DNA of 64,000 nt, from contig CANOCV010000005.1 of the NCBI GenBank assembly GCA_947564465.1, forward strand, positions 1-64,000, read 5' to 3'. Origin of the DNA: an uncultured Roseburia sp. (GTDB lineage: Bacteria > Bacillota > Clostridia > Lachnospirales > Lachnospiraceae). Each line of letters begins with the position of its first letter. The stretch's first letter is position 1. This document shows, piece by piece, positions 4,189 to 62,383 of this stretch. The notes below the pieces were generated by a model, which did no database searches, was not told the origin of the DNA, and was given only the letters and a program-made list of their open reading frames with translations. The position numbers and the translations under genes were made by a program.

Positions 4189-4210
4189 AATAATCCCTCC
4201 TTTTCCGAAC

Positions 4211-4239
4211 AAAAAAACCGACTGCCCACGCAATCGGTT
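4211..4239 (-). terminator. Intrinsic terminator directly before the RHS gene start
   Basis: A 10-bp stem (AACCGATTGC pairing with GCAGTCGGTT, one G-U) with a 4-nt loop is followed by a run of seven T on the minus strand. Its tail ends about 10 bases before the GGAGGG of the RHS gene and lies downstream of a TATAAT promoter. It either ends hisS-aspS transcription or acts as an attenuator in the RHS leader, or both. Confidence 0.8.
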
Positions 4240-4315
4240 TTCGATGTTCAATATTAAAATTTCCGGTACTAATATAAAGCTATCTATTTTTCATCTCTCA
4301 CCCATTACACCTCTA

Positions 4316-14247: not shown

Positions 14248-14316
14248 ATTATATTTTAACACCTTTTTCATCCAATAACGGGGCTTTGCGTGAACGGTCG
14301 ATATATGGTGTGAATA
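14248..14316 (-). promoter_or_regulatory. Giant-gene promoter 1 with LytTR-type direct repeats
   Basis: The minus-strand -10 is TATAAT (14248-14253). At the expected -35 position there is only a weak ATTGGA, as in activator-dependent promoters. Upstream are two direct repeats, 14288-14296 and 14308-14316 (plus strand GCGTGAACG and GTGTGAATA), 20 bp apart start to start. The same arrangement occurs at 28856-28884 and 32742-32770. It sits between divergent genes and also lies just upstream of a candidate plus-strand promoter (ATGACA 14321-14326, 17 bases, TAAAAT 14344-14349) for the kinase gene, so it could serve both. Confidence 0.7.
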
Positions 14317-14385
14317 GCAAATGACAAATAGCGGATAAAATATTAAAATATTTGCAAGAATAGTAATAACAAGGAGATCTTGCCG

Positions 14386-15654
14386 ATGTTCCTGCAAATA
14401 TTATCTTTGACACATAATTTAACTACAATGCTGTTTGGTATCTTTATCTCCGCCTTTTTTCTCGGCGTAAAGAAAACCTCCAAAAATATACTTACGCTGT
14501 TTCTCCTGTTCTGTTGCGACGGGATTTTCTATATTGCCGCCATCATGTTGTTAGGCGAGACTGTCAGCAACCGTCTCTATGCCCTTATCGTACATCTTCC
14601 GCTGATTCTGCTTTTGGTCCTGCGGTACAAATATTCCGTTGTTTCATCCTGTATCTCCGTGTTTTCCGCTTACCTGTGCTGCCAGATAAGCAACTGGGTC
14701 GGCCTGTTTGTATATACAATCACCAACACCCAATGGTGTTATTATCTTTCCCGCATTCTAATCACATGCCTTACTTTCTGGCTGTTGTCACAATTCGTAT
14801 GCCGCACGACGGAGGCGATATTTACCAAGAGTACGCGTGAGCTTTATATTATAGGCTTTCTTCCCACGATATACTATGTTTCCGATTACGCCTTTACCAA
14901 GCTCTCCGACCTGCTGTACTCCGGGAACAAAACCGTGGTAGAATTTATGGGTTTTGCCTTTTGTATTTCTTATCTCACTTTTTTATTCGTTTATTTTCGC
15001 GAATATGAGAATAAACAGGAAATCAGACAGTACAGTGAACTGATGGAAATACAACTTCTATCCATACAAAAAGAAATTGAACAGGTAAAATGCAACAAAC
15101 ACAGACTCGCCATATTAAGACATGATATGCGCCATCATTTAGATATCATCCTGACACAGCTTCAAAACAATCATATAGAGCAGGCTGCCGACTATATCCG
15201 GGAAATCAGCGACGCCTATGATAATACCGTAATTACAACCTACTGCAAAAATGAAATGATCAATTCCGTAATCTCTATTTATCAAACGCGTTCCGCCAAC
15301 AAGAAGATTACGCTCAACTGTGACATTTCTGTGGACAAGGCTCTCCCCTGTCCGGATATTGCAATTTGCACGATTTTATCCAACGCTCTGGAAAATTCCA
15401 CACATGCGTTAGAGAACATGGATATTGCAAGAAAATGGATTAACCTTATGATTTCCAAAAAACAGAATCATCTTCTGCTCCAAATTGAAAATCCAATCCA
15501 AAACGCTCCGAAATTTGTCGACGGCATTCCAACCTCCGGCAAAAAAGGACATGGAATCGGCGTAAAAAGTATCGTATACTATGTGGAACAGTTAAACGGA
15601 CAATATCATTTTTCCGTTTCCAACCACTCCTTTATTTTAAAAATTATCATTTAG
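14386..15654 (+). CDS. AgrC-like membrane histidine kinase (GHKL ATPase)
   Basis: 422 aa. The start is set at ATG 14386, 9 bases after AAGGAG; the TTG at 14380 is too close. Six or seven hydrophobic segments fill residues 5-205, followed by a coiled linker, the H-box LRHDMRHHLDII (His near 246) and a GHKL ATPase with N-box NALENSTHAL (about 331) and G-box GKKGHGIGV (about 385). This is the AgrC/ComD class that senses peptides or membrane signals and pairs with LytTR regulators. The gene ends 10 bp before such a regulator. No agrB or agrD-like gene was found in the window, so the signal is unknown. Confidence 0.9.
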   Translation: MFLQILSLTHNLTTMLFGIFISAFFLGVKKTSKNILTLFLLFCCDGIFYIAAIMLLGETVSNRLYALIVHLPLILLLVLRYKYSVVSSCISVFSAYLCCQISNWVGLFVYTITNTQWCYYLSRILITCLTFWLLSQFVCRTTEAIFTKSTRELYIIGFLPTIYYVSDYAFTKLSDLLYSGNKTVVEFMGFAFCISYLTFLFVYFREYENKQEIRQYSELMEIQLLSIQKEIEQVKCNKHRLAILRHDMRHHLDIILTQLQNNHIEQAADYIREISDAYDNTVITTYCKNEMINSVISIYQTRSANKKITLNCDISVDKALPCPDIAICTILSNALENSTHALENMDIARKWINLMISKKQNHLLLQIENPIQNAPKFVDGIPTSGKKGHGIGVKSIVYYVEQLNGQYHFSVSNHSFILKIII

Positions 15655-15664
15655 AGGTGTCACC

Positions 15665-16372
15665 GTGAAAATAGCTGTTTGTGATGATGAAAGACAATTT
15701 ATCGATGAGATTTGCCCTTTATTGGAACAGTGGGCACAGAGCCGCAATATCAGGCTTACGCTCTACCGTTTCACGGACGGAGACGACTTAATCGCCACTC
15801 ATAAAAACAAAAATATGGATTTAATCATTTTAGATGTGATTATGCCGCTGTTGAACGGCATAGATACGGCAAAAGAAATCCGGCATAACGATTCGGCTGT
15901 CCCCATTATTTTTCTCACCTCCTCCAGGGAATTCGCTGTTGATTCTTATGAGGTAAGGGCTTTCTACTATCTTATAAAACCCGTCGTCCGCGAAAAACTT
16001 TTCCTTGTCATGGATGACTTTCTGAAAATATTTAACCTCGAAAAACATACGTTTACCGCGCATACCGCTACCGGCTATTATAAAATTGCAATTGACGATG
16101 TCGATTATCTCGAAGCACAGAATAAGCAGGTTCTCGTGCATATGGCGGACGGAAAAACCATAGAAATCCGAGAGCAGTTTTCCACATGTGAAAGCGTGTT
16201 TTTACCGGACAATGGTTTCTTTCGATGCCATCGCAGCTATATTGTGAATTTGAACCATGTGGAACAATTTACAAAAACAGAGCTTTGCACGAACCAAAAT
16301 GCCACGATTCCAATATCCCGAAACAACTATATGGCATTTAAGAATGCCTACTTTCGTCATATGTTCGGATAA
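15665..16372 (+). CDS. LytTR-family response regulator (AgrA-like)
   Basis: 235 aa with a GTG start behind AGAGGTG. The N-terminal receiver has the acidic pair in VCDDE, the phospho-acceptor Asp in LIILDVIMP (about 57) and Lys in YLIKPV. From about 135 the C-terminus is a LytTR DNA-binding domain (DVDYLEAQNKQVLVHM, then FFRCHRSYIVNLNHV). Cotranscribed with the upstream kinase. LytTR proteins bind pairs of about 9-bp direct repeats roughly two helical turns apart, which matches the sites upstream of the three giant genes, so it is the best candidate for their activator (inference). Confidence 0.92.
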   Translation: MKIAVCDDERQFIDEICPLLEQWAQSRNIRLTLYRFTDGDDLIATHKNKNMDLIILDVIMPLLNGIDTAKEIRHNDSAVPIIFLTSSREFAVDSYEVRAFYYLIKPVVREKLFLVMDDFLKIFNLEKHTFTAHTATGYYKIAIDDVDYLEAQNKQVLVHMADGKTIEIREQFSTCESVFLPDNGFFRCHRSYIVNLNHVEQFTKTELCTNQNATIPISRNNYMAFKNAYFRHMFG

Positions 16373-16404
16373 TTCCCAGGCGGTACAGACAGGGAAAGCG
16401 GCGA

Positions 16405-16433
16405 TTGACACGGCCTCGGTTTCCTATTAAAAT
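16405..16433 (+). promoter_or_regulatory. Sigma-A promoter of the surface-protein gene
   Basis: TTGACA (16405-16410), 17 bases, TAAAAT (16428-16433), about 40 bp before the ATG. A strong constitutive-looking promoter that lacks the LytTR direct repeats. A further TATAAT at 16439-16444 has no matching -35. Confidence 0.65.
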
Positions 16434-16471
16434 TAAACTATAATTATCTATGGGAAACGGAGTATGTACAT

Positions 16472-20227: not shown

Positions 20228-20271
20228 ATGCGCCCCTCCTTTCTCCCCAGTGCTTGCCGCACGCGGCGCCA

Positions 20272-21357
20272 CTAACGGTCCGGCGGAACAAAACGATAGC
20301 CCTGTCCCCAGACCGTCTCGATAAAGCAATGGCCTTCCTGCGCCGTATCCAACTTCCTTCTAAGCCTTGACATGTGCATCTGCGCCGTCTGAGCGCCCTC
20401 CGGGGATGGCTCACCCCATACCATGCCAAAAATCTCCTCCGGCGTAAAAATACGCCCCGCATGTTCCGAAATCCGCCATAAAATGTCAAATTCAAGCGTC
20501 GTAAGCGGCAGTTCCTTTCCGTCTATCAGCGCCTTTCGCCCCGTCAAATCCAATAGGAGCGGGCCATATTTTCTCTGGACACAGTCGGATGCGGCCAGCT
20601 TGATGCGTGTCTTCACTTTCATCCAAAAAAGCTCGGCAGGCGTATCCTTGGTAATATAATCTATACCGCCGGACGCAAATCCCTCCAGCTGCTTATCGGT
20701 CTCGGTCAGACAGCTCAAAAAAATCACGGGCGCCCCCGTCAACATGCGAAGCTTCTCGCAAATAGCAAACCCGTCCTCTCCGGGAATCATTACGTCCAAC
20801 AGCACACAGTCGCAATACTCCTTTTTGGCCAGTTGAACCGCCTCCCTGCCGTTTTGTGCCAGATGCGTAATGCAGCCGTGGCTTTGCAGAACCTTTGCCC
20901 AGAAAGCGCGGTCGGCAGAATCGTCGTCCACCAGCAGGATCTGCCACGGGCCGTCCGGGCGCACCGTCTTTTCTTCAAAAGCGCGGTTCTCTGCGCCGGA
21001 CGATACGGCGGCTATTTCCGTCTGATGCAGAAACTGCAGATATGCGTCCTTCACCTCACCCCGCCGCTGTCTGGATACGGGAACATTATGCCCGTCCTTC
21101 GTTACGGCGCAGTGAACGCTAACGGCCTGCACGCAGCTTAAGTTGACAAGATAAGAGCGGTGTGTCTTCACAAACTCAGGCCGCGCCAGAATCTCTTCTT
21201 CAAAATCCGCAAGAGCGGCGGTCGCCTCGTAAACGGCGCCGCCTGCCAAATGAAAAAAAACCGTCTTATTCATAACTTCTACATATTCCAGATCCGCAAA
21301 CGCAATCCTTACAACGCCGTCTTTGCATTTCAGCGCAAATCCCTGCTCCTTCTGCAT
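20272..21357 (-). CDS. Response regulator with LytTR, receiver and OmpR-type winged helix in one chain
   Basis: 361 aa; ATG 21357 follows GGGAGG at 8 bases. Residues about 1-105 are a LytTR DNA-binding domain (DLEYVEVMNKTVFFHLAGG, then FVKTHRSYLVNLSCV), aligned by eye with the LytTR domain of the 15665-16372 regulator. About 140-255 is a receiver (ILLVDDDSAD, phospho-Asp in CVLLDVMIPGEDG, Lys in YITKD). About 265-361 is a PhoB/OmpR winged helix (LTTLEFDILWRISEHAGR, HMSRLRRKLD, VWGQGYRFV). Two DNA-binding domains of different families on either side of one receiver is an unusual order; the normal forms have one output domain. Cotranscribed with the kinase downstream and with a 19-codon leader ORF. 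The LytTR half may recognise the same direct repeats as the AgrA-like regulator (inference). Confidence 0.93.
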   Translation of the reverse strand: MQKEQGFALKCKDGVVRIAFADLEYVEVMNKTVFFHLAGGAVYEATAALADFEEEILARPEFVKTHRSYLVNLSCVQAVSVHCAVTKDGHNVPVSRQRRGEVKDAYLQFLHQTEIAAVSSGAENRAFEEKTVRPDGPWQILLVDDDSADRAFWAKVLQSHGCITHLAQNGREAVQLAKKEYCDCVLLDVMIPGEDGFAICEKLRMLTGAPVIFLSCLTETDKQLEGFASGGIDYITKDTPAELFWMKVKTRIKLAASDCVQRKYGPLLLDLTGRKALIDGKELPLTTLEFDILWRISEHAGRIFTPEEIFGMVWGEPSPEGAQTAQMHMSRLRRKLDTAQEGHCFIETVWGQGYRFVPPDR

Positions 21358-21392
21358 GGGCAACACCTCCCTGCATTATTCTCTTCTTTAAA

Positions 21393-21452
21393 TTATATCA
21401 TACTGCGTCTTGCGCCTGCAATCACCTCTTTACTTGATTTAATAAACGGCAT
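21393..21452 (-). CDS. 19-codon leader ORF before the triple-domain regulator
   Basis: Encodes MPFIKSSKEVIAGARRSMI. It has a strong site GGGAGG 7 bases before ATG, and the 14-base stretch CAGGGAGGTGTTGC is repeated exactly before the regulator start 36 bp further on, so the initiation region looks duplicated. Its start codon lies inside the right arm of the 13-bp inverted repeat. It may be a regulatory leader peptide or a small protein; too short for homology by eye. Confidence 0.55.
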   Translation of the reverse strand: MPFIKSSKEVIAGARRSMI

Positions 21453-21527
21453 AGCAACACCTCCCTGTTAATAACAAAAATATACGCAAATTTTGTTATC
21501 AAGTCAATTGGAAAGTGTTGCTATGCC
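21448..21527. repeat. 13-bp inverted repeat flanking a promoter
   Basis: GGCATAGCAACAC (21448-21460) and its exact reverse complement (21515-21527) flank 54 bp that contain a complete promoter. An inner dyad ATAACAAAA/TTTTGTTAT straddles the -10 element. The layout fits an invertible promoter, or alternatively an operator/cruciform; no invertase gene was seen nearby. Confidence 0.65.
21479..21507 (-). promoter_or_regulatory. Promoter of the leader ORF / regulator / kinase operon
   Basis: TTGACT (21502-21507), 17 bases, TATATT (21479-21484) on the minus strand, about 27 bp before the leader ATG. The inner dyad ATAACAAAA/TTTTGTTAT has one arm in the spacer and one just downstream of the -10, a typical place for repressor or autoregulator binding. 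Confidence 0.7.
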
Positions 21528-21535
21528 TAAAGTTT

Positions 21536-21564
21536 GTAACAGTTCAGATAAACCGACCTGTTAC
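21536..21564. repeat. 29-bp hairpin repeat, copy B
   Basis: Second copy of the element at 7496-7524: same GTAACAG/CTGTTAC arms, same orientation, four differences in the centre. It lies between the 3' end of the 2392-aa gene and the regulator promoter. Confidence 0.6.
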
Positions 21565-21594
21565 GAATGTTCAATAACAAACCGTTTAACTGAT

Positions 21595-24500
21595 TTATTT
21601 TATGCCTGCTTTTTTCAGCTTGCTCTTCATTTTAGTTTTGTTCTTCTTGCTCATCTTCGCCGCAAGCTTTACTTTTACCTTGGAAGCCGTCCCTTTGAAC
21701 GCTCCCGACTTGAAAGTCGGAACCTTCGTGCTCTTAAAAGTAATAGTCTTTAACTTCTTACATCCATAAAAGCTCTTTGAATCAAACGTTTTTATATTCC
21801 CGTTCACAGTGAGCGACTTTATGGCCTTGCAGCCGTTAAATGCATTCTTGCCAACCTTCGTAATGTTCTTGCCGAGCGACACCTTCGTGATCTTCACGAA
21901 CTTCGCGAATCCCTTCGCCTTAACCTCGGTCACCTTGCATTCACTGCCGTTAACCACAACAGTCGACGGAATGCTGACGGCGAATTTTTTCTTCTTCGCC
22001 GATGCCACGCCTTCCACACTCGCGGTCTTTTTCACCGGATCTAAAACGACGAATTTTAAGCTGCCTTTAATCACGGAGTCGCCCTTTTTCAGTACCGGTG
22101 TCGTCCCCGGATTCGTCGTCCCTGGGTTCGTAGTCCCCGGATTCGTCGTTCCTGGTTTCGTCGTTCCCGGATCAGTTGTTCCCGGATCAGTTGTTCCCGG
22201 ATCGGTTGTTCCCGGATCGGTTGTTCCCGGATCGGTTGTTCCCGGATCAGACGGATTTTGTGCTTCTTCCTCTTTTAGTTGTGCATCCGTCTTAATTGCT
22301 GCCACATCTGTTTTTGCCTTGTTCAATACAGTCTGCACAGCATCTGAATCTGCGGCATCGTCAACTTCTTTCATGGCGTCACGGATAACCTCTGTCAGCG
22401 CATTCCATTCGGCTTCGCGGTAAAGCGCTTTCTTTTCATCCGTAAGGAACGTCTCCAGTTCCCGTTTCGCCTGATCCTTTACTGCTGACAGCACTTTTTG
22501 CTCTTTCGTCAGAATGCCGGCAATTCTATCTTCTGCCTGTCGCAGCGCTTCCTGCACCGTCTCATTATCTACTGCATCTTCAATATTTGCCAGTGCCTCC
22601 GCAACAATGGACCGAATCTCATCCTGATCTTCCTCGTCGTACTTGGCAAGCTCGCTTTCAGTCAGATATGCGTTCAGCTTATTCGTTGCTTCTGTCCTGC
22701 CTGTTTCCGCTTCCGCATCCACCTCTGCTTTGGTCTTGATTCCTTCAATTGACTTTTTCGCCTCATCTAAAGCATCCCGCATAGTTTTCACATCCGAAGC
22801 TCTCTCAATGGTTTTCCCTGCCCCTTCCAGCGCTTCCGCTATCTCGTTCTGCTGTGCCTCATAATAATCCTCATAGTTGATTTCCTGTCCCAGATTATCA
22901 AGTTCTGACTGAATCTGCCTGCGCATCTCTTCTGTCTTTTCTGCAAACACCGCCTCTAAAACAGACATCGCATTCTTTATTGCTTCGATGTCTCCGCCTG
23001 CATTTGCAATTGCTTCCTCTGCCTGCGCAAGCGCCGCCTGCAGCGTTTCGCGGTCTGCTTCGTCATAATCGGAAATCAATTCTTCGTACTGTTTTAGCCT
23101 TTCCGGTATTTCCTCGACGACATTCTGTCCCGCCTTGATTTCCTCCGGATTCAGGCTATATGCCCCTTCCGTAAACATATTAACGCGTACAACCGGCACA
23201 CATGAAACCGAAATTCCATCACATGGGTTCATCGAGTTCACACTTCCGTCCTGCATGGTCAGTCGCGCCATACTTGAACTTTGAACCGTTGAACTCTGCC
23301 ACCAGAAGCGCGCATTGTATGAAAGTGCAGAAGCATAATCGCTCGGAGATACAACCCTGCTCTTTTGCGCCGCCGCGCTTCGATGAAAGCCATACTCCTC
23401 TTTCAGCAGAGCGCCGTAAGACGGCAGGGAAATCAAATCATCCGCCACGTATCCCTCGTCATCTGTCAAAACGGGACTGATAAGAATCTCCTGCTGCGTC
23501 AGGTTAAACGCCTCATTGCAGAAATCTCCGGTCAGCCACTCGCGCAGTGTACTGTCCTTCCATTCCGCATACCCGGACTCGTTAAACTTCTTCGCATCCA
23601 GTCCGTTGTCCGCCATCAGCAGGAGGGATGCCGTCTCCCCGTCCCCCGTCATTTCTTTCTGCAGGACGCGCCATTTGATCGGTTCCCATCTAAAGTAAGA
23701 GCTGCGATACTTGCGGTATTTCTTTCTGACGCCGTCTATTTCCACCCATGCGTCTTCTCCGTCTTCCTTGTCTGCCATTGCCGCCTGTACCGCCGCAGTC
23801 TCATCCGCGTCCGAAACAAGGGACTGCGGGTAGCTGCCGAAATATACATAGCTGTATGATGCGGAATTTTCTTCGGGATTTTCCGCCGCAACCGGATTTT
23901 TAAGATTCTCTGCTTCCGGGTGCGTCTCCTCCCATTCTTTCATCTTTATCTCGCCTATCGTCAATACGCCGTCCAGCCTTTCTTTGGCTGCTTGAAGCGC
24001 ATTTTGTATCTCTTCCTCGTCTCCCGCGTTTTCAATATTCGCATTTCCTTCTTCGCGGATCGCCCTGCGCTCCTCCTGCTGCTTCGCGTAATAGGCATCG
24101 TCGTTTGCTTTGTATGCGGCAAGCTCTGCCTTTGCGGCATCCTTTTTCAAATCCAACTCCGTCTTCCACAATTCGGATGCTGCATTCACATGGAGAACCG
24201 GCACAACGCCCTGCTTGAAAAACGTGTTTGCGCCAACCGGGCAGACAAAGCCATAATAAAATGTCCTCGAAAAGTCTGCCTGGTTCTCGTCTGTAAATCC
24301 CGGCGAACGCGTCCACGTAAACTGCCCTGATCCGGAATCTTTCCTTGCAGCGTCAAACGACTCGAATCCGAGGGATTCCTGATAATACTTCAAAACCTTC
24401 TCAACATCTCCCGCAAGAATATCCTCCAGATCCCCCTTATACATACCCGGCAATGCCTGAACCAATCCTATTTGATAATCCGTCTGCGTCTGCTGGCGGC

Positions 24501-27500
24501 TGCTAACGGGCTGTCTGTTGCCATTTCCCCTGTTATCATGCAGCGGGCAGAACCCGTATTTCTCCTGATACAGCTCATTGTATGAGAGCAGATATACCCT
24601 ATCCTCCGTCGTATCGGCTGCCACGTTTACGGCATTCCCATGGTCGGCATCCGGGAACTGTACCTGCCATGTGAGCACCGCATCCTGCTCATCGGCATTA
24701 AACGCTGCCTCAAAGAAGTCCTGATTCAGCCATGTGCGAAGGTCACTGTTCCTCCATGTTACCGCGTTTACCTCGCGGTCCATCTGACGGTACTCAATTT
24801 TTTGATCCGCCATCAGATACAGGGAATTTGTCTCGTTTTCGATCTGCAGCACCTTCCACTTGACGGGCTCCCATTTATAATAGGTCGTGATCACGTCGTC
24901 GCCTTCGCCGATTTTCGTGATTTTCAGCCTGCGGTACTTACTGCCGTCTATTTCGGCGTCATAGATTTCCATATAGCTGCTTTCTATGCCGGTATCGACT
25001 GCGGCCGCATCGCCCGCTTCGATTGCCGCATCAACCGCGGCCGTTATGTTCTTGTCCGTCACCTTAGACTGTGGATAGCTGCCGAGGTACACATAGCTCC
25101 ACTCGGTCACGTCCTTATCCTCATCGCCCTCTGCCACTGCACCGTCCGTTAAGACATGGGTATGCTTCGGATTGCTCAGTCCCTCCAGACGCTTCAGCAC
25201 TTTCTCCTGTTCCTTTGTAGGAATCTTCGCAATGTCTTCCTTTGCCGCATCGAGAACAGACGTCACGTCCCCCGTATTTTCGGCATCCTCAAGCTCCTGC
25301 TTTGCCTCTTCAATGGCCGCCAGCACCTTCACCCACGCTTCCTCGGAATAATCGTCCTTCAGGTAGCCTGTTTCCAGTTCTCTCTTCGCATCTTCTATGG
25401 CCTGCTCCACAATGAACGGATCCTTGCTGCCGCTCTCCGGCTCAAAGGACCAGTATCCGCTGCTCTTTAAAACACGCAAGGCAGGAACGACATAGGCTTT
25501 TACGAGATAATTAATCTCTTGATTGCTTATGGTATAAGCCTGATATGGCAGATTATCCGTCACAGTACCATCCTGACTTTCATCATTAAAACCGGCATTC
25601 ACTGTCGCAACCGTATTATCCGTATCACTTACTCCTCGCAGCCACCAGAAGTCCTTTAACGGTTCCGCATAACCGGATGCCAAGGTTGGCGACATCGCGC
25701 CCCAGTAGCTCCTTATGGCATCACAATAATCATTTTTTTCAATGTGCCGACTTGCAGAAGCTTTCGCCGCATCCTTACAGAATCCATACGCCTCTTTCGT
25801 CGCTTCCTCCTTAGTCAGCAGATAAACACTGCTCTCCTCCCCTTCAATGTTCTCCGGAATGATAGCTTCTCTCTCTCTTTCGTTAAAAGCATTCTTCAAA
25901 AAATCTTCATTCAGAAAACTCTTCATATAGCTATTGTTCCACCTGGCATTCGACCACCACAAGCTCCCGCTGCCTTCCATATATTTTTCCACGGAAACCG
26001 TCGAATCAGCGACCACAAATAAGGAATCCTCGTCATTCTGAAGGACTCTCCATTTGATCGGCTCCCATTTGTACCAGCCCATTTGGTATATATATGTATA
26101 CTTCTCACCGTTTAACGTCACTTCTTTTCTTGACACAGCAGTCATATCACCACTGCCAGTCCACGAGCCGTCGATATCATTCAGCTCTTCAATGAGCGCT
26201 TTGTCCTTGACTTCCGTCTGTGGAGACGAGCCAAAATAAATATATTTCCAATCTGTTGTATCCTCATCGCCGTTCGCATTACAATGATGCACCGGATCCA
26301 ACTCCATCGTCTCTAAATCGCCCCGCGCCTCTGCCCGGTAGTCCGAATCCGTCTTAATCTTTGCAATCGCTGCAATTGCCGCTTCCAGCGCACTTTTGAC
26401 GGCAGATGGGCTTCCCGCCCGCTCAATTGCGGCTTTTCCGTCCGCAACCGCCGCCGTCCACGTCTTCCGCTCCGCTTTCCGGTAGTGAGCCGCACTCCGA
26501 TAATTTTCCAGTTTCTCTTTGGCGGATGCTTTCTCCTGCCGCAGAATCGTCTCCTCACTCACCCACTGGTCGGATGAGAGGCTGATATACATAGCCGGCG
26601 CGCAGGAGACCAGGAGATTACCGTATGTCTCATAATTTTCTATAATATCTCCGTTCGATCCTACCACGGTGGCAGCCGAAGCGTCATCATCAGCCCTCAG
26701 CCACCATGTGTCCGAAGCAGCATAACTGCTTTTCTTACGGGCATATTCACTGACAGACAGTACACGCGCCGGCAGCTTATCTGCCGTTTGGAATCCATAA
26801 GATTCGTTCCTCACGTCCTCAGCCGACAGCAGGAAAAGCTTGTCGCCTCCCTGCGCTGTAATAGCTTCGCGCTGCGCGGCGTCAAAGGCCGTCATATAAA
26901 AACTGTGCACCTTCTCCTGCTTCTCATCCTTAATATATTGAGACATGTATCTCACGCCCCCGTTATCATAATCCTCACACAAATAGAAGTAATAGGAAAA
27001 GAAATTATTCGGCGCCTGATAATTCGGTTCATAGACCGTGTTCATCTCTTCATTGTTCAGCCAGTCCTTGATCCGGCTATTTGTCCATGCAAACCCCGTT
27101 CCTGTCTGATTATAATCGATATAATCAAGCCCCATGTCCGCCATGACCAAAAGCTTATCTTCCGTTTTCTGCAGAACCCTCCAGCGGATTGGTTCCCATT
27201 TGTAATAAACAAAGCAATCCGTCAAGCTCGTATTATCATAATAAAGGCCATGCTTTGTATAGATTCTACGGTATTTCACACCGTCAACCGTGGCGTCCCC
27301 GTTGGCGTCATACGACGCGTTTTTAATGGCATCCGTCAAATCATCTCCCGTAACCTCCGTCTGCGGATAGCTTCCGAAATAGATATAGCTCCAGCTTCCC
27401 GCCGTCGGATTGCCTACCATGCCGCTCTGATCCGGCGCCTGAAAGACCACATCTTCGGCTGCCACTGTCTGAATATCCGTCTGTTCTACGTCCGGCGCAT

Positions 27501-28773
27501 AGCTCTCGGCCGGCGCAAAGTAAAAATTACCGTCCTTCATGGAAAAGCCGAACATCTGCTTCTCCCCAAGGGTATCCTTTAAGCTGTATACGCCGTCCGG
27601 ATATCCTTCCTCGCCTATCCTGCGAATTTCCGTCGGTGTATTGTAATACAAGCAGTCCCCCGATTTGACAGGGAACATGTAGCTGCCCTGTATCACGCCT
27701 TCCCCTTCGGTCCATGCCGGGGCCGTGTCCATCACCGTCTCCGCGCCGTCCAAAAGGCTGTCTCTTTTTACAAGCTTCACTGCCGTATCAGCGTTATTTC
27801 CGTCGGGCTGGAATTTAGAATAATACCAACTTCCGTTATAGGAGACGATAGCCGACCGGATATCGCTCCAAAACGCATCGTCATATGTATCGGAATCGGC
27901 AGCAATATCCCCGTCCCATGCGTAATGGTTTTCACCGGAAGGCGCATCGGGACTGCCGTTTGATATTTTGCTGTCGCTGAGCAGGAAATTATCGTGGCTT
28001 ACTCTTCCGATGCAGTCCCACACGGGATCGTCCCATGTAAGATCCACATGGTACCATTTCCCGTCCAGCTGAATCATATTCCACGAATGCACCATCTGCT
28101 CGCTTGTGACAATCCGGCATGGAATTCCAAGCTTATCCCGCATAATGTAAAGATATGCGCCCGCATAGCCGTCACATACCGCCTGACCGTCGACCAGGGC
28201 TCCGTATGCCGTATGGGAAATCTCCGGTACCGTATTTGCCTGCATATTTGCATAATCGTATTTACAGTTCTGTATCAGATAGTCATGTACTGCCAGCGCC
28301 TTTTCATAAGGCTCCATATCAGACTCCACGCAGGCTGCGGCAGCATCTGCCGCCTTCTCCATAGCGGCGGACATATCCTCAATCTGCTCCTTTGTCACAT
28401 CGTCTATATACTGCACCTGATATGCCGTGACAATCCCGCTCCCGTCATCCGCATCCGTCATAACTTGGTTCGACTGGCGAACATAGAACAACTCCGGATG
28501 GTTCTTCAAAATTTCGACGTATTTTCCACGCTCCGAAAACGGAATCCGATAAGATGACACGTCGATCGTCGTCTCGCCTGCCTTAAGCGCATCAACAATA
28601 TAGTTCTCTAACGTCGCCGATTCTTCCGGCTCGTCTGTCACTCCTCCTGTTTCCTGCGCCGCAGCCTGTATTGTTTCCCCGATTCCGATTCCGGCTATCG
28701 TTTGAATCAGAATCGTTCCGATTAAAAGAAACGCCAGCAGGGTGCGATGCCATGCTGTTTTGTTTTTTCGCAT
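21595..28773 (-). CDS. Giant secreted protein: transglutaminase-like domain, four DUF6273 domains, helical repeats, BspA-like LRR
   Basis: About 2392 aa. ATG 28773 has the best spacing to AAAGGAG (the ATG at 28779 is only one base away). Signal peptide RTLLAFLLIGTILIQTIAG. Residues about 120-290 are a transglutaminase/protease-like core with Cys in GQAVCDGYAGA, His in QMVHSWNMIQ and Asp in HVDLTWDDP. Four DUF6273 domains begin near 457, 838, 1221 and 1638 (YIYFGSYPQTEV, KWEPIRWRVLQ, LLMADMGLD), each followed by Ala/Glu-rich three-helix segments. After more helical repeats (1870-2160) comes a PGTT-repeat linker (about 2174-2228), then LRR_5/BspA-like repeats (KNAFNGCKAIKSLTV) and a Lys-rich end. 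Probably a cell-surface enzyme or adhesin; the triad looks intact. Promoter region at 28821-28884. Confidence 0.87.
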   Translation of the reverse strand: MRKNKTAWHRTLLAFLLIGTILIQTIAGIGIGETIQAAAQETGGVTDEPEESATLENYIVDALKAGETTIDVSSYRIPFSERGKYVEILKNHPELFYVRQSNQVMTDADDGSGIVTAYQVQYIDDVTKEQIEDMSAAMEKAADAAAACVESDMEPYEKALAVHDYLIQNCKYDYANMQANTVPEISHTAYGALVDGQAVCDGYAGAYLYIMRDKLGIPCRIVTSEQMVHSWNMIQLDGKWYHVDLTWDDPVWDCIGRVSHDNFLLSDSKISNGSPDAPSGENHYAWDGDIAADSDTYDDAFWSDIRSAIVSYNGSWYYSKFQPDGNNADTAVKLVKRDSLLDGAETVMDTAPAWTEGEGVIQGSYMFPVKSGDCLYYNTPTEIRRIGEEGYPDGVYSLKDTLGEKQMFGFSMKDGNFYFAPAESYAPDVEQTDIQTVAAEDVVFQAPDQSGMVGNPTAGSWSYIYFGSYPQTEVTGDDLTDAIKNASYDANGDATVDGVKYRRIYTKHGLYYDNTSLTDCFVYYKWEPIRWRVLQKTEDKLLVMADMGLDYIDYNQTGTGFAWTNSRIKDWLNNEEMNTVYEPNYQAPNNFFSYYFYLCEDYDNGGVRYMSQYIKDEKQEKVHSFYMTAFDAAQREAITAQGGDKLFLLSAEDVRNESYGFQTADKLPARVLSVSEYARKKSSYAASDTWWLRADDDASAATVVGSNGDIIENYETYGNLLVSCAPAMYISLSSDQWVSEETILRQEKASAKEKLENYRSAAHYRKAERKTWTAAVADGKAAIERAGSPSAVKSALEAAIAAIAKIKTDSDYRAEARGDLETMELDPVHHCNANGDEDTTDWKYIYFGSSPQTEVKDKALIEELNDIDGSWTGSGDMTAVSRKEVTLNGEKYTYIYQMGWYKWEPIKWRVLQNDEDSLFVVADSTVSVEKYMEGSGSLWWSNARWNNSYMKSFLNEDFLKNAFNEREREAIIPENIEGEESSVYLLTKEEATKEAYGFCKDAAKASASRHIEKNDYCDAIRSYWGAMSPTLASGYAEPLKDFWWLRGVSDTDNTVATVNAGFNDESQDGTVTDNLPYQAYTISNQEINYLVKAYVVPALRVLKSSGYWSFEPESGSKDPFIVEQAIEDAKRELETGYLKDDYSEEAWVKVLAAIEEAKQELEDAENTGDVTSVLDAAKEDIAKIPTKEQEKVLKRLEGLSNPKHTHVLTDGAVAEGDEDKDVTEWSYVYLGSYPQSKVTDKNITAAVDAAIEAGDAAAVDTGIESSYMEIYDAEIDGSKYRRLKITKIGEGDDVITTYYKWEPVKWKVLQIENETNSLYLMADQKIEYRQMDREVNAVTWRNSDLRTWLNQDFFEAAFNADEQDAVLTWQVQFPDADHGNAVNVAADTTEDRVYLLSYNELYQEKYGFCPLHDNRGNGNRQPVSSRQQTQTDYQIGLVQALPGMYKGDLEDILAGDVEKVLKYYQESLGFESFDAARKDSGSGQFTWTRSPGFTDENQADFSRTFYYGFVCPVGANTFFKQGVVPVLHVNAASELWKTELDLKKDAAKAELAAYKANDDAYYAKQQEERRAIREEGNANIENAGDEEEIQNALQAAKERLDGVLTIGEIKMKEWEETHPEAENLKNPVAAENPEENSASYSYVYFGSYPQSLVSDADETAAVQAAMADKEDGEDAWVEIDGVRKKYRKYRSSYFRWEPIKWRVLQKEMTGDGETASLLLMADNGLDAKKFNESGYAEWKDSTLREWLTGDFCNEAFNLTQQEILISPVLTDDEGYVADDLISLPSYGALLKEEYGFHRSAAAQKSRVVSPSDYASALSYNARFWWQSSTVQSSSMARLTMQDGSVNSMNPCDGISVSCVPVVRVNMFTEGAYSLNPEEIKAGQNVVEEIPERLKQYEELISDYDEADRETLQAALAQAEEAIANAGGDIEAIKNAMSVLEAVFAEKTEEMRRQIQSELDNLGQEINYEDYYEAQQNEIAEALEGAGKTIERASDVKTMRDALDEAKKSIEGIKTKAEVDAEAETGRTEATNKLNAYLTESELAKYDEEDQDEIRSIVAEALANIEDAVDNETVQEALRQAEDRIAGILTKEQKVLSAVKDQAKRELETFLTDEKKALYREAEWNALTEVIRDAMKEVDDAADSDAVQTVLNKAKTDVAAIKTDAQLKEEEAQNPSDPGTTDPGTTDPGTTDPGTTDPGTTDPGTTKPGTTNPGTTNPGTTNPGTTPVLKKGDSVIKGSLKFVVLDPVKKTASVEGVASAKKKKFAVSIPSTVVVNGSECKVTEVKAKGFAKFVKITKVSLGKNITKVGKNAFNGCKAIKSLTVNGNIKTFDSKSFYGCKKLKTITFKSTKVPTFKSGAFKGTASKVKVKLAAKMSKKNKTKMKSKLKKAGIK
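22105..22250. repeat. PGTT tandem-repeat linker DNA
   Basis: About ten 15-bp units coding for DPGTT, KPGTT and NPGTT inside the 2392-aa gene. The units are nearly identical, so copy number could change by slippage and alter the stalk length before the LRR module. Confidence 0.8.
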
Positions 28774-28820
28774 TTTCATTCTCCTTTCGTTGTAGTCATG
28801 TTTGGGTTATTTTAATAGTT

Positions 28821-28884
28821 ATTATACTATTTTTTTTCGAAAAATTTGGGATTTTGCGTAAACGGCACGTATAAGGCGTGAATT
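28821..28884 (-). promoter_or_regulatory. Giant-gene promoter 2 with LytTR-type direct repeats
   Basis: Minus-strand -10 TATAAT (28821-28826) with no good -35. Direct repeats at 28856-28864 and 28876-28884 (plus strand GCGTAAACG and GCGTGAATT), again 20 bp apart. The gap from -10 to the first repeat is about 30 bp here against 35 bp in the other two promoters, so the true -10 may be a nearby variant. Confidence 0.65.
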
Positions 28885-28927
28885 GCACTTACGGAAGCTG
28901 CGCATAAGCTTTTATATTATAGGATAC

Positions 28928-28963
28928 AAAAAAGACGCCGCCGATTTCTGCTGCGTCTTTTTT
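28928..28963 (-). terminator. Terminator of the 1221-aa protein gene
   Basis: AAAAAAGACGC and GCGTCTTTTTT arms with a 14-nt loop, 28 bp after the stop codon at 28991. The flanking A and T runs make it usable in both directions. Confidence 0.85.
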
Positions 28964-28990
28964 ATTCTTTTTCTCTGCTTTGGGAGCCGC

Positions 28991-31900
28991 TTACTTAACC
29001 GTGAGCTTGATCTTTTTGATGGTTTTTCCGCTCTTAATCCGAAGCGTGAAGGAACCTTTCTTCTTGCCCTTGACGGTTAGCTTGCCATTCTTCAATGTTA
29101 CAGATGCAATCTTCTTCTGCTTTGCCGTAAGCTTCTCAATAGAGATCCCTGAATTGCTTGGACTTGCCGTAACCGTCAGGACTTCTTTCTTCTTTTTCTT
29201 TACCGTCAGCTTGGACTTTGTGAATTTCCTGCCGCCCTTCTTGATTGTAAGGACAGGGTTCTTTACCGTAACCTTAACGGTCTTGCTGATACCGTTTGCA
29301 GTTGCGGTGACTGTTGCGGTTCCCTTCCCCGCCGCGGTAATCTTACCGTTTAGGACCGTTGCCACTTTTGGATCGCTGGTCTTCCAGGTCACGGTCTTTG
29401 ACGCTCCGGTAACGGTTGGATTGACAACTACACTGTTAGACTCCTTGCCTGTGTACAAGGTAACATTTGTCTTGTTCAGGGACAGTCCGGCGGCCGGAAG
29501 CGGAGTCGGCGTCCCATTATCCGTACCTGCGCCGCCCGAATTGTTTTTGTCCGCCTCCTCCTGCTCTTTCAGCTTGGCGTCAGTCGGCTGTTCGTCAAAC
29601 ACCTGTCTGGCCGCTTCCAACGCTTCTTTTACCGCATCCTGATTCTCTGCCGCAGCAATCTCTTCCCTCGCCGCTTCAATGGCAGTTATAATCCGATCCT
29701 GCTGCTCGATACGGTACTCATCCAGCTTTTCCCAAAGGTCATCCAGTTCTTTTAACGCATCGCTGCGCGCCTGATTCAAGGCCTGCCCCTGTTCCAATTC
29801 CTTCTGTTCTTCGGTCTTTATCGTCGCGACCTCTTCCTTTGCAAGACGCAGCAGCTCCTGTATCTCTTCCGGCTCCGTCTTACCTTCCATATCCGCCTCA
29901 AGCTTATCGGCAATCTCCTTTATTTTTGCCTGTTCTGCTTCGCCGTACCGTGCAAGGAAAGCGGCTTCGTTCCATGCAAGAATCTGCTGGTTCGCCTTCT
30001 CTTTCTCCTCTTTCAATTCCGATCGCATATTCCTGATCTCTTCGATTTTTTCCTGTAACCTCGCAAGCGCTTCCTTTACCGCCGTTACATCCTGCGCATT
30101 CTCAAGCTCTATTGCCGCTTCATCAAGCGCAGCCTCAAGCTCCGCCCGCTGGCTGTCGTCAAACTCCGCATCGGCAGTAAGATTTTCCCGAAGCTGCTCA
30201 AGCTCCCATTTTGCCTCCTCCTTTTTCGCGATAGTCTTCTCCTCTAATGCGGCTTCCATTTTCGCAAACGCCGTCTCTGCCGCTTCCCGGTCTTCCTTCG
30301 CCAGCGCGGCTTCCACCTCGCTCTTTATGGTATTAAAAAGCTCCTCCAATTCCTGCTTCGCCGTGCCCTCGTAATCTGCAAGCCTGCCCGCATACTCCGT
30401 CAGTTTTTCCTGGCATTCTTCCAAAAGGGTCTGCTCGATTGTAATGTCTTTCGCATAAAACGACCAGGCATTCTCTATGTCCATATTGATACGCACAACC
30501 GGAACGCATACAAGGGGATATCGAGATAAAAATTCCATATCCAGAAAACGTCCATCCCCCGCAACCACGGCGCTTGACTGCAGCCACCACAGAGCTCCCG
30601 ATCCCGATTTCTCATCTCTTTTCTTGGTATAATCCGTCCACCCCACGGCACGGCTGCGGGTCTCCACATTAGCCGGTTGAAATCCATATTTATGGGCGCC
30701 TGCCGCCATCCGGGAAAGAATCGAAACACGATCTCCCGCCGTAGCGGTTTCCGTAGACTCTAAGAGCGCCTGTTTTGCCTCCTTGCCAAACGCCATGTCG
30801 TAAAATTCCGTATTCAGCCATGTTCTAAGCGTACTGTCCTCCCACGCTGACATTGTTCCTGTACTGCTGTTTTCACTCTTATTAAAGTACTGTACATCCA
30901 GCCCCTTATCCGCAATCAGATAAAGCGTCGTCATCTCGCCCTCTGTTTTTTTCTGCATCAGCTTCCACCGGATCGGCTCCCATTTAAAATACAAGTATTT
31001 GCCGCCCACTTTTATTTTACGATATTTATTCCTGATGCCGTCATATTTTACCCATACGTCCGCACAGTCGTCCGTTATTGTCTCTCCGACTGCCCGATCA
31101 ATTGCCTCCCTTAAGCCGGTATTCTCAATCTTAACCTCCGACTGCGGATAACTGCCCATATAAAGGTAACTCCAGGTCGTCTTGTCCCTGATCATGTCAT
31201 AATATGGATTCGCAAGCTCCTCTGACACCTCTTCCCCCGGCGAAACCGGGTCCTCTTCGCCCGGCGAACCCTGTCCGACGGTTACCGTAATATTTGTCCA
31301 AAGCCCGTCATAGGAAGCCTTTATCACGGCTTTCCCGTCTTTTAACGCAGTCAGTTTGCCATCCGAAAGCAGAACCGTATCCTCGCCGGAAGAAACACTC
31401 CATTCCGCCGCAACCGGAATCTCCAGAGACGGCGCCGGCCCATATGTCTCCCTCGTTCTGATATCGTCAATCACCTGTGGAAGCTCTCTGCTCTCTCCCT
31501 GTTCCATCTTTATCGCAGCAGACTCTATTCTCAGCGTCCGGTCATAATTGGCGACGGATCTGGAAATATCAATTTTTGCTTTTGTCTCGCGGTCAATTGC
31601 CTCTGTTTCCTCGCCGCTCACGACGCCGCTGCTAAACTCCTGCACCCAATAATGCCACCCGTTGTAAACCACATGCGCAATTCCGATTGCCTTAAAATCC
31701 TTGCTCAGCATATTTCTCCTATGCCCCTGGCCTTCATAAACCTCACGTTCCTCCTGCCACAGCTTAAACGCCTCCTCCTCCGAGCAATTCTCCCCGTTGC
31801 TTATCGCAATATTTTCTCCCACTCTCAGATTGGCAAATGCATCGGAATAGGCCGCGTCGGCAGACGTTCCGTTCGGTCTTGTATGGGAATACGCCGCAAT

Positions 31901-32656
31901 CAGTTCCGCAGCCCTCTGCATGGCGATCTTCTCCAGTTCATAATCGTAGGTAAACGTTTGAAGATCCGTGTGCTTAATCAATGCCGAATTATCCTGGTTC
32001 CATTCCCATGCATCATCCCCTGTCCGGAACTCGTTGATGCGCGTAAGCATTGCTCTCGCATCGGTCTGGTTGTAGGTGACATGAAATTCCGCGCTCATCA
32101 TCCGCTCGCCATACGGCACCAGTTCTTCAAAACCGATGGATTCCACCGCCCGTGCAATTTCCGCCGAATCCTTAAACCCGGTGAGAATCTTTCTGACCTT
32201 TCCGGTATTGTCAGTGAATACATATGTCGGCGTTTCTATATACCGATTGCCGAGCATATTATAAGAATAATCTCTCAAAGCTTCCAAAGCCTGTGTCGTA
32301 GTGTCATAACAATAGGTAATTCCGGGAGTTGCCATCTCATCCGCAAATTCCCGTACTTCTTCCAGACTGCTCCTACTCTCATCAATATAACAGAGCGCCA
32401 CGTCTTCTTTTGAAAATCCCGCCGCATCGAGATATTGAAGCGCCGGCGGCGTATAAATACAACTCGAAGTTCCGAATACTACTATCGTCAGCTTATAATC
32501 GGGCGACCACATCGAGTGTGTTCCCCCGTCAATTGTCTGATAAACTCTATTATCCGGCTCTTCCTCCGCTTCCTCCGCCGATACCGGTATCTCTATCCCT
32601 GTCGCAAGCAGCGCCACCGCCAGAAGCAGAGACAGTATTTTTAAGGTCCTTCTCAT
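28991..32656 (-). CDS. Large secreted protein: thioredoxin-like, CAP, DUF6273, helical and Big_2 modules
   Basis: About 1221 aa; ATG 32656 (MRRTLKILSLLLAVALLATG) follows AAAGGAG at 8 bases. After the signal peptide, residues about 40-180 look thioredoxin/TlpA-like (LTIVVFGTSSCIYTPPAL, a single Cys instead of CxxC; TPTYVFTDNTGKV). About 185-360 is a CAP/SCP domain (MLTRINEFRTG, SHTRPNGTS, GENIA, HRRNMLSKDFKAIGIA, HYWVQEF). A Big-like strand region and one DUF6273 domain (about 500-780: YLYMGSYPQSEV, FKWEPIRWKLM, LLWWLQSS-type segment) follow, then Glu/Ala-rich helical repeats (785-1080), a Big_2 domain and a Lys-rich C-terminus. The lone Cys argues against a normal disulfide oxidoreductase. 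Shares its promoter pattern with the other two giants. Confidence 0.86.
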   Translation of the reverse strand: MRRTLKILSLLLAVALLATGIEIPVSAEEAEEEPDNRVYQTIDGGTHSMWSPDYKLTIVVFGTSSCIYTPPALQYLDAAGFSKEDVALCYIDESRSSLEEVREFADEMATPGITYCYDTTTQALEALRDYSYNMLGNRYIETPTYVFTDNTGKVRKILTGFKDSAEIARAVESIGFEELVPYGERMMSAEFHVTYNQTDARAMLTRINEFRTGDDAWEWNQDNSALIKHTDLQTFTYDYELEKIAMQRAAELIAAYSHTRPNGTSADAAYSDAFANLRVGENIAISNGENCSEEEAFKLWQEEREVYEGQGHRRNMLSKDFKAIGIAHVVYNGWHYWVQEFSSGVVSGEETEAIDRETKAKIDISRSVANYDRTLRIESAAIKMEQGESRELPQVIDDIRTRETYGPAPSLEIPVAAEWSVSSGEDTVLLSDGKLTALKDGKAVIKASYDGLWTNITVTVGQGSPGEEDPVSPGEEVSEELANPYYDMIRDKTTWSYLYMGSYPQSEVKIENTGLREAIDRAVGETITDDCADVWVKYDGIRNKYRKIKVGGKYLYFKWEPIRWKLMQKKTEGEMTTLYLIADKGLDVQYFNKSENSSTGTMSAWEDSTLRTWLNTEFYDMAFGKEAKQALLESTETATAGDRVSILSRMAAGAHKYGFQPANVETRSRAVGWTDYTKKRDEKSGSGALWWLQSSAVVAGDGRFLDMEFLSRYPLVCVPVVRINMDIENAWSFYAKDITIEQTLLEECQEKLTEYAGRLADYEGTAKQELEELFNTIKSEVEAALAKEDREAAETAFAKMEAALEEKTIAKKEEAKWELEQLRENLTADAEFDDSQRAELEAALDEAAIELENAQDVTAVKEALARLQEKIEEIRNMRSELKEEKEKANQQILAWNEAAFLARYGEAEQAKIKEIADKLEADMEGKTEPEEIQELLRLAKEEVATIKTEEQKELEQGQALNQARSDALKELDDLWEKLDEYRIEQQDRIITAIEAAREEIAAAENQDAVKEALEAARQVFDEQPTDAKLKEQEEADKNNSGGAGTDNGTPTPLPAAGLSLNKTNVTLYTGKESNSVVVNPTVTGASKTVTWKTSDPKVATVLNGKITAAGKGTATVTATANGISKTVKVTVKNPVLTIKKGGRKFTKSKLTVKKKKKEVLTVTASPSNSGISIEKLTAKQKKIASVTLKNGKLTVKGKKKGSFTLRIKSGKTIKKIKLTVK

Positions 32657-32701
32657 TGCAACGACTCCTTTCCCTTTTTGCAAAAATAACTATACTTTAA
32701 A

Positions 32702-32770
32702 GTTATATTTTAACATCTTTTTCACCCGAGATCTGCGTTTTGCGTGAATCGTAAATATATAGCGTGAATG
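32702..32770 (-). promoter_or_regulatory. Giant-gene promoter 3 with LytTR-type direct repeats
   Basis: Minus-strand -10 TATAAC (32702-32707). Direct repeats at 32742-32750 and 32762-32770 (gene strand GATTCACGC and CATTCACGC). This is the cleanest pair of the three, with identical ATTCACGC cores 20 bp apart and a possible degenerate third half near 32781. Distance from -10 to the first repeat is 35 bp, as in promoter 1. Confidence 0.7.
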
Positions 32771-32812
32771 GTAAATATATACCGTTTCACCGATGGAGTT
32801 AACTTAGTGACG

Positions 32813-32869
32813 GCATCTACCTCTTCCTTTAACTTGCGGAACCTGCCACCGGCAGCTTCCTAAAGATGC
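32813..32869. other. Structured intergenic inverted repeat
   Basis: An outer pair GCATCT/AGATGC encloses an inner hairpin, GGAA-CTGCC with GGCAG-TTCC. It lies between the hemZ terminator and the direct repeats of promoter 3. Function unknown; no coding sequence seen in 32771-32880. Confidence 0.4.
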
Positions 32870-32880
32870 ATTGCAACATA

Positions 32881-32924
32881 AAAAAGCAGTAAACTATGTT
32901 ATACAAAACATCGTTCACTGCTTT
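32881..32924 (-). terminator. Terminator of the rel-MBL-hemZ operon
   Basis: AAAGCAGT/ACTGCTTT closes a longer imperfect stem, with a T run on the minus-strand side, about 80 bp after the hemZ stop. Confidence 0.75.
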
Positions 32925-33002
32925 ACTGTATCTCTTATTTAGCTGCTATCCTTATGCCAATACAATTGCTCTCTTTTCGATGGTCGCATTCACCTCTTCC
33001 AT

Positions 33003-62123: not shown

Positions 62124-62218
62124 TTTTTTCCTCCTGTTATTCTGCTGCGCCAAGTATGGTCGCTCCATCCATAAAGTTTCATTGATAATAAAATAGAATA
62201 CGGCCCGGAGGGTTTTTT

Positions 62219-62280: not shown

Positions 62281-62378
62281 AAAAGCCGACGTATCCAGGC
62301 TTTTCGCCCAGACGGTCGGCTTATTCATCAGTTATACTTCATGTGGTTTCTCCACTTATCCGTCAGTCATATAACCTA
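62281..62378 (-). ncRNA. ZTP (pfl motif) riboswitch
   Basis: On the minus strand: GACTGACGG, then GTGGAGAAACCAC (stem-loop), ATGAAG, a linker and GCCGACCGTCTGGGC. This is the order of conserved blocks in the pfl-motif RNA, which senses ZTP/ZMP, the signal of folate one-carbon shortage. The last block forms the terminator stem GCCGAC/GTCGGC (62282-62321) followed by five T. It controls pflB-pflA, which supply formate for one-carbon metabolism. Confidence 0.75.
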
Positions 62379-62383
62379 GGCTT

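Follow-up and report, generated by a model that had tools for sequence, protein, structure and literature searches.

Known LytTR systems and the present locus

Published LytTR sites are described in PMC6193735 as 9-base-pair (bp) direct repeats with a 12-bp spacer, or in a minority an 11- or 13-bp spacer, and with a bias to a position 10 bp upstream of the -35 element. For SilA, an 11-bp spacer was established experimentally (PMC2766830), and AgrA direct repeats are centred at about -60 upstream of promoters with suboptimal -35/-10 spacing (PMC4227749). Here, we describe three direct repeats of this type, each with a period of 20 bp, that stand upstream of three giant genes in a 64,000-nucleotide stretch of DNA from an uncultured Roseburia sp. 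(contig CANOCV010000005.1; the whole stretch is called the window below). We judge it likely from the comparisons reported here that they are operators of the response regulator P0002, which would switch on all three genes when the kinase P0001 is active. To our knowledge, most giant secreted proteins of Lachnospiraceae have yet to be characterised, and how they are regulated is little understood. The two proteins are encoded as follows.

14380..15654, + strand: P0001, GHKL-type sensor histidine kinase, predicted partner kinase (PF14501, 61.4 bits, residues 327-424)
15665..16372, + strand: P0002, REC-LytTR response regulator, predicted binder of the three sites (PF00072, 66 bits; PF04397, 73.1 bits)

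The P0001-P0002 operon adjoins the first of the three sites and is divergent from the 2097-amino-acid (aa) giant gene behind that site. Its composition, a REC-LytTR regulator and a GHKL-type kinase, is that of AgrA/AgrC of Staphylococcus, and the motif FFRCHRS of P0002 corresponds to FFRCHNS of AgrA, whose residues contact DNA (PMC4227749). AgrA LytTR structures were also among the weak sequence matches of the LytTR part of P0002 (E ~1e-4). However, P0002 scored 45.1 bits against a cut-off of 400 for the NCBI AgrA model NF046049 and is therefore not an AgrA orthologue, and, unlike the Agr locus, the present one has giant proteins as targets and a period of 20. The SilA/SilB regulon of streptococci resembles it in having two direct repeats with an 11-bp AT-rich spacer, and there too a repeat model was used for a genome-wide search (PMC2766830); in contrast, SilA/SilB is driven by the peptide SilCR, and its repeats are 10 bp long and of different sequence. 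AgrB was not found among the 18 window open reading frames (ORFs) scanned with Pfam, and no peptide gene was identified, small peptide genes not having been searched for in either case.

LytTR regulatory systems of the HdrRM/BrsRM type share the 9-bp repeats and the 12-bp spacer with its 11- or 13-bp minority (PMC6193735), and the sites that we found in genomes G052 and G102 upstream of their own regulator genes would be autoregulatory likewise. Those systems pair a LytTR regulator with a membrane inhibitor, whereas here the regulator has a receiver domain and an adjacent histidine kinase gene. A LytTR direct-repeat regulon is of a known kind. In the open-access literature (most subscription papers were outside its scope), we found no LytTR regulon of giant surface proteins or of GGDEF genes in Lachnospiraceae, and neither this regulon nor its period-20 clade nor its exchangeable targets were met there.

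Direct repeats upstream of three giant genes

An original prediction, made from the letters of the window, had placed repeats exactly 20 bp apart upstream of the three giant genes, and this was confirmed at 3/3 sites. Their + strand letters are GCGTGAACGGTCGATATATGGTGTGAA (14288), GCGTAAACGGCACGTATAAGGCGTGAA (28856) and GCGTGAATCGTAAATATATAGCGTGAA (32742).

14288..14314, - strand: site 1, direct repeat TTCACAC-N13-TTCACGC (gene strand), upstream of the 2097-aa gene, between that gene and the divergent kinase gene
28856..28882, - strand: site 2, direct repeat TTCACGC-N13-TTTACGC, upstream of the 2394-aa gene
32742..32768, - strand: site 3, direct repeat TTCACGC-N13-TTCACGC, upstream of the 1230-aa gene
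14253..14258, - strand: -10 box TAAAAT with TGT in front (extended -10), 29 bp after site 1, no good -35
28821..28826, - strand: -10 box TATAAT, 29 bp after site 2, no good -35
32707..32712, - strand: -10 box TAAAAT with TGT in front, 29 bp after site 3, no good -35

The common core TTCACGC that had been proposed is present in both halves of site 3, but sites 1 and 2 each carry it in one half only, the other being TTCACAC and TTTACGC, respectively. The prediction that the -10 elements lack a good -35 held, the best -35 match upstream of the 29-bp boxes (spacers of 15-19) being 2/6; the distance of 30-35 bp given with it did not hold for the first -10 box, although at sites 1 and 3 an overlapping alternative -10 (TATAAT/TATAAC), whose best -35 match is 3/6, begins 34 bp after the repeat and is perhaps what had been counted. 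When half-sites are counted as 9 bp, a period of 20 amounts to an 11-bp spacer at 3/3 sites, in agreement with the published spacing (PMC6193735 and PMC2766830), so that the proposed LytTR-type layout stands, with similar sites found near P0002 relatives in ten further genera. The three leaders showed no sign of RNA control, since Rfam at gathering thresholds returned in the window only a tRNA and a ZTP riboswitch, neither of them near the sites. The general LytTR half-site consensus is [TA][AC][CA]GTTN[AG][TG]; the downstream half of site 1, ACCGTTCAC, fits 8/9 of this consensus, and the remaining half-sites fit it less well.

The genes behind the sites are the following.

7904..14197, - strand: predicted target 1, 2097-aa protein with DUF6273, FG-GAP, fn3 and Big_2
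21595..28779, - strand: predicted target 2, 2394-aa protein with a transglutaminase core, 4 DUF6273 stretches and LRR_5
28991..32683, - strand: predicted target 3, 1230-aa protein with CAP, Big_2 and a DUF6273 match below the curated cut-off

The longest ORFs of the second and third genes thus differ from the 2392 and 1221 aa first given, while the 2097 aa of the first were correct. All three proteins have a signal peptide-like N-terminus by a crude hydrophobicity score and are probably secreted. We considered DUF6273 as the common property of site-bearing genes, as the original prediction had expected, and rejected it: all three targets match the domain (one below cut-off), but none of five other DUF6273 matches in the genome has an exact site. 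These five siteless genes, together with sites of relatives that stand before GGDEF and other genes, indicate that the site is not a marker of DUF6273 as such.

Tests against chance in the window, the genome and the genus

The genome searched comprised 118 contigs and 3.07 Mb and was 98.76% complete; the patterns used for window and genome were composed after the sites had been seen, from the sites themselves. Within the window, GYGTRAANNGNNNNTATANNGYGTGAA with up to 3 mismatches gave 3 matches, each without a mismatch, where shuffled sequence averaged 0.10 (at least 3 matches in 0/100 shuffles). Because the strict form TTCACGC-N13-TTCACGC matched just once in the genome, at site 3, a degenerate pattern was adopted, and GYGTRAA-N13-GYGTGAA had 3 exact matches in 3.07 Mb, namely sites 1, 2 and 3. 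The genome-wide check suggested with the prediction thus returned one site in its strict form and, in the degenerate form, exact repeats at the three promoters only. With one mismatch the same pattern gave 8 matches, which is chance level (reversed-pattern control, 10 in all), and 0/8 of these had a -10 of at least 5/6 letters at 28-32 bp.

When each site was tested singly, by shuffling of its own intergenic region, the values were about 0.16 for site 1, 0.39 for site 2 and 0.003 for site 3, so that sites 1 and 2 are not significant individually. Since the patterns were drawn from the sites and these single-site tests are weak, the case rests on the sharing of the repeat and on its occurrence in relatives. 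In 7 other genomes of the genus, TTYACRC-N13-TTYACRC gave 4 matches, the same as the reversed control (4), and the exact half-site of the window is therefore not a genus-wide signal; that pattern misses the conserved site at locus L046 of genome G007 (half-sites TTCGCGC). In the genome of L046, GYGYRAA-N13-GYGYGAA gave 2 matches, the conserved site and one other, vs 2 in the control.

Sites near relatives of P0002

We searched 150 genomes of the family with P0002 and 397 genomes with a four-row profile (P0002 and three relatives). Twelve genomes, including the one under study (G000), scored at least 266 bits with the clade profile, after which came a gap. In 11/12 of these, a direct repeat was found in the fetched stretches, with a -10 beginning 28-32 bp past the second 7-mer. 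The period is 20 in G000, G232, G275, G341 and G376, and 21 in G149, G043, G198, G234, G168 and G350. The regulators of the four other period-20 genomes are 63-68% identical to P0002 and those of the six period-21 genomes 38-45%, and the ten site-bearing genomes other than G000 carry ten different genus labels.

The genes behind these sites vary. They encode GGDEF proteins in G275, G341, G376 and G168, all four beside P0002-type regulators; the N-terminal parts of these proteins match GAF (L163, 6050-7453; L164, 3085-4176), PAS (L165, 10692-11546) or no family (L167, 160-1314). In G043 the site precedes the gene of a 1545-aa carbohydrate-binding-domain protein, in G232 that of an epimerase-domain protein, and in G198 what follows it is an 82-aa remnant whose end resembles that of an anchored surface protein. 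In G234 and G350 the site heads runs of genes on one strand, which include signal-peptidase-like proteins and a repeat protein of 1579 or 1620 aa. The sites of G149 precede other genes, the nearest 4.6 kb from the regulator; the proteins encoded behind them are one of 1662 aa with a transglutaminase domain, a giant relative of the 2097-aa protein and an LRR protein of 428 aa, and 3/5 of these sites have TATAAT.

The pairing of a regulator with a giant gene is not general to LytTR regulators, since among 37 loci, mostly with LytTR regulators of 27-36% identity, an ORF of at least 1000 aa was present in 10 but lay within 3 kb of the matched regulator in 1 only. Two further loci with a LytTR regulator and a giant gene were considered and not retained as support: L053 (G049), where the repeat was not significant (~0.47), and L058 (own genome, contig C37), where it was not significant either (~0.14); in both the regulator lies outside the P0002 clade. 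L058 (8560-8990) is a second kinase/LytTR pair divergent from a giant gene (at least 1881 aa), with two AT-rich repeats of nearly the same sequence (AAATTTTACA, period 20-21) in the intergenic region, where a long inverted repeat also precedes the giant gene.

Repeat period and regulator phylogeny

For a test of spacing, we used 56 loci (945 kb) fetched by regulator similarity, with the window, other own-genome loci, G149 loci and motif-fetched loci excluded, and scored each period between 12 and 40 for pairs of exact YTYRCRC half-sites that have a -10 of at least 5/6 letters 28-32 bp downstream. With the -10, there were 4 matches at period 20 (L046, L162, L164, L165), 5 at period 21 (L048, L052, L161, L166, L180) and none at any of the remaining 27 periods, i.e., 9/9 matches fell at period 20 or 21; the L161 site had first been read in this orientation in the scan just preceding the test. 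When the -10 was not required, 7 matches each were found at periods 20 and 21 vs 0-4 at other periods. In a maximum-likelihood tree of 25 regulators, all five period-20 regulators, including P0002, formed one clade (100/100). Label shuffles clustered as well in 0/500 cases for the period-20 group, 1/500 for the period-21 group and 0/200 for all labels together, the regulators labelled 'none' in the tree having been examined with unequal care. The period of the repeats follows regulator phylogeny, and repeats of the same layout occur near P0002 relatives in ten other genera.

A cross-family scan was run over the 397 genomes with a period-21 pattern that was derived from the G149 sites and adjusted so as to include the G043 site. 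It gave 11 matches in 7/397 genomes, against 0 with the reversed control, and a period-22 version serving as a wrong-spacing control gave 0 matches in G149 (control 6) and 1 in 397 genomes. Five of the 11 fall inside a 27-kb part of G149, a sixth is the site of G043, and five are outside both genomes. Of these last five, 3/5 are upstream of LytTR regulator genes (G052, G102, G066): those of G052 and G102 stand just upstream of genes for regulators 29-31% identical to P0002, with TATAAT at 32 bp, and that of G066 is 55 bp before the likely ATG of a gene for a regulator 28% identical to P0002. In G298, roughly 360 bp separate the match from a downstream gene for a signal-peptide-like protein of 3121 aa or more, and another contig of this genome encodes a P0002-type regulator with an incomplete N-terminus. 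The G142 match is upstream of a GH94 gene.

Several observations, beside the weak single-site tests given above, weigh against assigning the repeats to P0002-type regulators. G144, a genome inside the clade, showed no site in its fetched stretches nor in the 397-genome scan; the -10 of G275 is weak (TATATA, 4/6), and the half-site of G350 is the variant TTCATTC. Two of the G149 sites stand before gene fragments without a good -10 (4/6 and 3/6). The YTYRCRC consensus was composed after many of the counted sites had already been seen, and when one mismatch was allowed and no -10 required, periods 20 and 21 (35 each) fell within the range of the other periods (14-46). In the scan, the G066 match lies within the longest ORF, being upstream only from the later ATG, and has no -10 at 28-32 bp (best 3/6), and for the G142 match there was neither a good -10 nor a LytTR regulator in the 16 kb fetched.

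Another view is that an unrelated regulator binds the repeats or that the match is due to chance. The motif is short and was spotted by eye, and the single-region shuffles for sites 1 and 2 fit such a view; however, the exact matches are confined to the three promoters, 3/5 of the scan matches outside the design genomes are upstream of LytTR regulator genes, and the period agrees with regulator phylogeny, which leaves this view very improbable. The original reading of a local LytTR regulon is supported by the confinement of the sites, by the sites of relatives and by the agreement of period and phylogeny, and would now be narrowed to P0002.

Two LytTR proteins in the window

Either of two LytTR proteins had been put forward as the regulator. 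The second one is encoded between the target genes.

20272..21366, - strand: P0004, LytTR-REC-wHTH protein, disfavoured as binder (LytTR domain 55.4 bits, cut-off 22.6)

Its LytTR domain is a good one, and together with the kinase P0005 it might bind the repeats in place of P0002; moreover, a period-21 repeat, TTCGCGC/TTTGCGC, is found close to the P0004 orthologue in both G004 and G322. That repeat also adjoins another LytTR regulator, 30-33% identical to P0002, and therefore need not belong to the P0004 type. Orthologues of P0004 (E<=1e-40) were present in 4/16 genomes examined (G000, G004, G007 and G322) and not found in the other 12/16, of which 11, all but G144, carry the site; of these 11, 7 are at least 90% complete and 4 are 68-87% complete. 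The distribution of the site thus follows P0002-type regulators, and a role of P0004 as binder appears unlikely. P0002 fits the earlier expectation of a LytTR regulator and is, with high though not full confidence, the predicted binder of the three sites.

In G004 and G322, the P0004 orthologues have an extra N-terminal receiver domain (REC-LytTR-REC-wHTH). This first receiver domain is lacking in P0004 of the window and in the L046 orthologue, which leaves LytTR-REC-wHTH. Copies of the REC-LytTR-REC-wHTH form stand at L052 (7403-8881) and L180 (9866-11341). The fusion is common in databases, with 416 proteins at E<=1e-60 among 7993 scored candidates, and all three domain families are present in 120/120 of those listed of the 416.

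Probable promoter copying and the relative L046

The promoters of sites 1 and 3 share 44/60 downstream bases; the two promoters are thus probably not independent inventions, a further point against our reading, and because of this similarity one promoter is probably a copy of the other. The repeats could then be promoter-duplication relics carried along with the giant genes and have no present regulatory role, as the extension of the likeness between sites 1 and 3 far past the repeat would suggest. At site 2, by comparison, the downstream region is just 28-29/60 like that of sites 1 or 3, yet each half-site still has 6-7/7 bases; half-sites kept while the flank diverged form a pattern that selection on the half-sites would leave.

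The same-genus relative L046 offers evidence on both sides. There, a site precedes a 2175-aa protein that is 76% identical to the 2097-aa protein, and both half-sites are TTCGCGC where site 1 has TTCACAC and TTCACGC, so that the repeat was kept. This identical change in both half-sites argues against relics. L046 (6740-7352) has, as assembled, a kinase remnant of about 16 codons beside a regulator that starts at its residue 49, i.e., that lacks its first 48 residues and has an intact LytTR domain. The lack of most of the kinase and of these regulator residues is what relics would predict, a true deletion and an assembly error both being possible, and so are the 2/5 G149 copies before giant-gene fragments without a good -10. 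Nevertheless, repeats arranged in this way are found across genera, ahead of genes that are unrelated to each other and with little variation in their distance from the -10, and we give the relic view only a small chance of being right.

The 2394-aa and 1230-aa genes are absent from the corresponding place in L046. The 11.6-kb stretch 21366-33003 of the window, in which both of these genes are situated, is absent at L046 12328-12329, and the P0004 gene there abuts a radical SAM gene. The two G149 operators that lack a good -10 (L175, 10143; L072, 6978) are followed by fragments that share 70-72% identity with the transglutaminase region of the 1662-aa protein encoded nearby, as if part of an array had decayed.

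Proposed mechanism and significance

If the three repeats are operators of P0002, the kinase P0001 would phosphorylate P0002, and, by comparison with LytTR proteins of known action, the phosphorylated P0002 dimer would bind two half-sites about two helical turns apart. Bound P0002 may then hold RNA polymerase at promoters that have no -35. The output of the regulon may be a change of cell surface or attachment, because the targets of relatives are mostly giant or surface-protein genes or diguanylate cyclases. A wider model is more tentative, and we hold it at slightly under an even chance. In this model, the AgrC/AgrA-like two-component clade of Lachnospiraceae would be a plug-in sessility switch. 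Its operator (a direct repeat and a -35-less -10 at 28-32 bp) would stay constant, with genes for giant surface proteins and for diguanylate cyclases replacing one another behind it; further giant genes would join by acquiring a copy of the operator-promoter, and in one clade the operator would have lost a single base (period 21 to 20).

The control of giant proteins becomes directly testable with an operator prediction, a named regulator and a set of candidate targets from twelve genomes (the one under study, that of L046 and ten others). In four genomes the same regulator clade is found ahead of diguanylate cyclase genes, which ties the display of surface proteins to a likely decision between attached and free-living states, and the one-base difference in operator period between regulator clades provides a clean case for how LytTR dimers measure spacing.

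Other features of the window

A 1160-aa RHS-repeat protein is encoded at window positions 769-4251 (- strand). The ZMP/ZTP riboswitch (58.2 bits) lies at 62299-62380 (- strand), upstream of a 756-aa ORF at 59898-62168.

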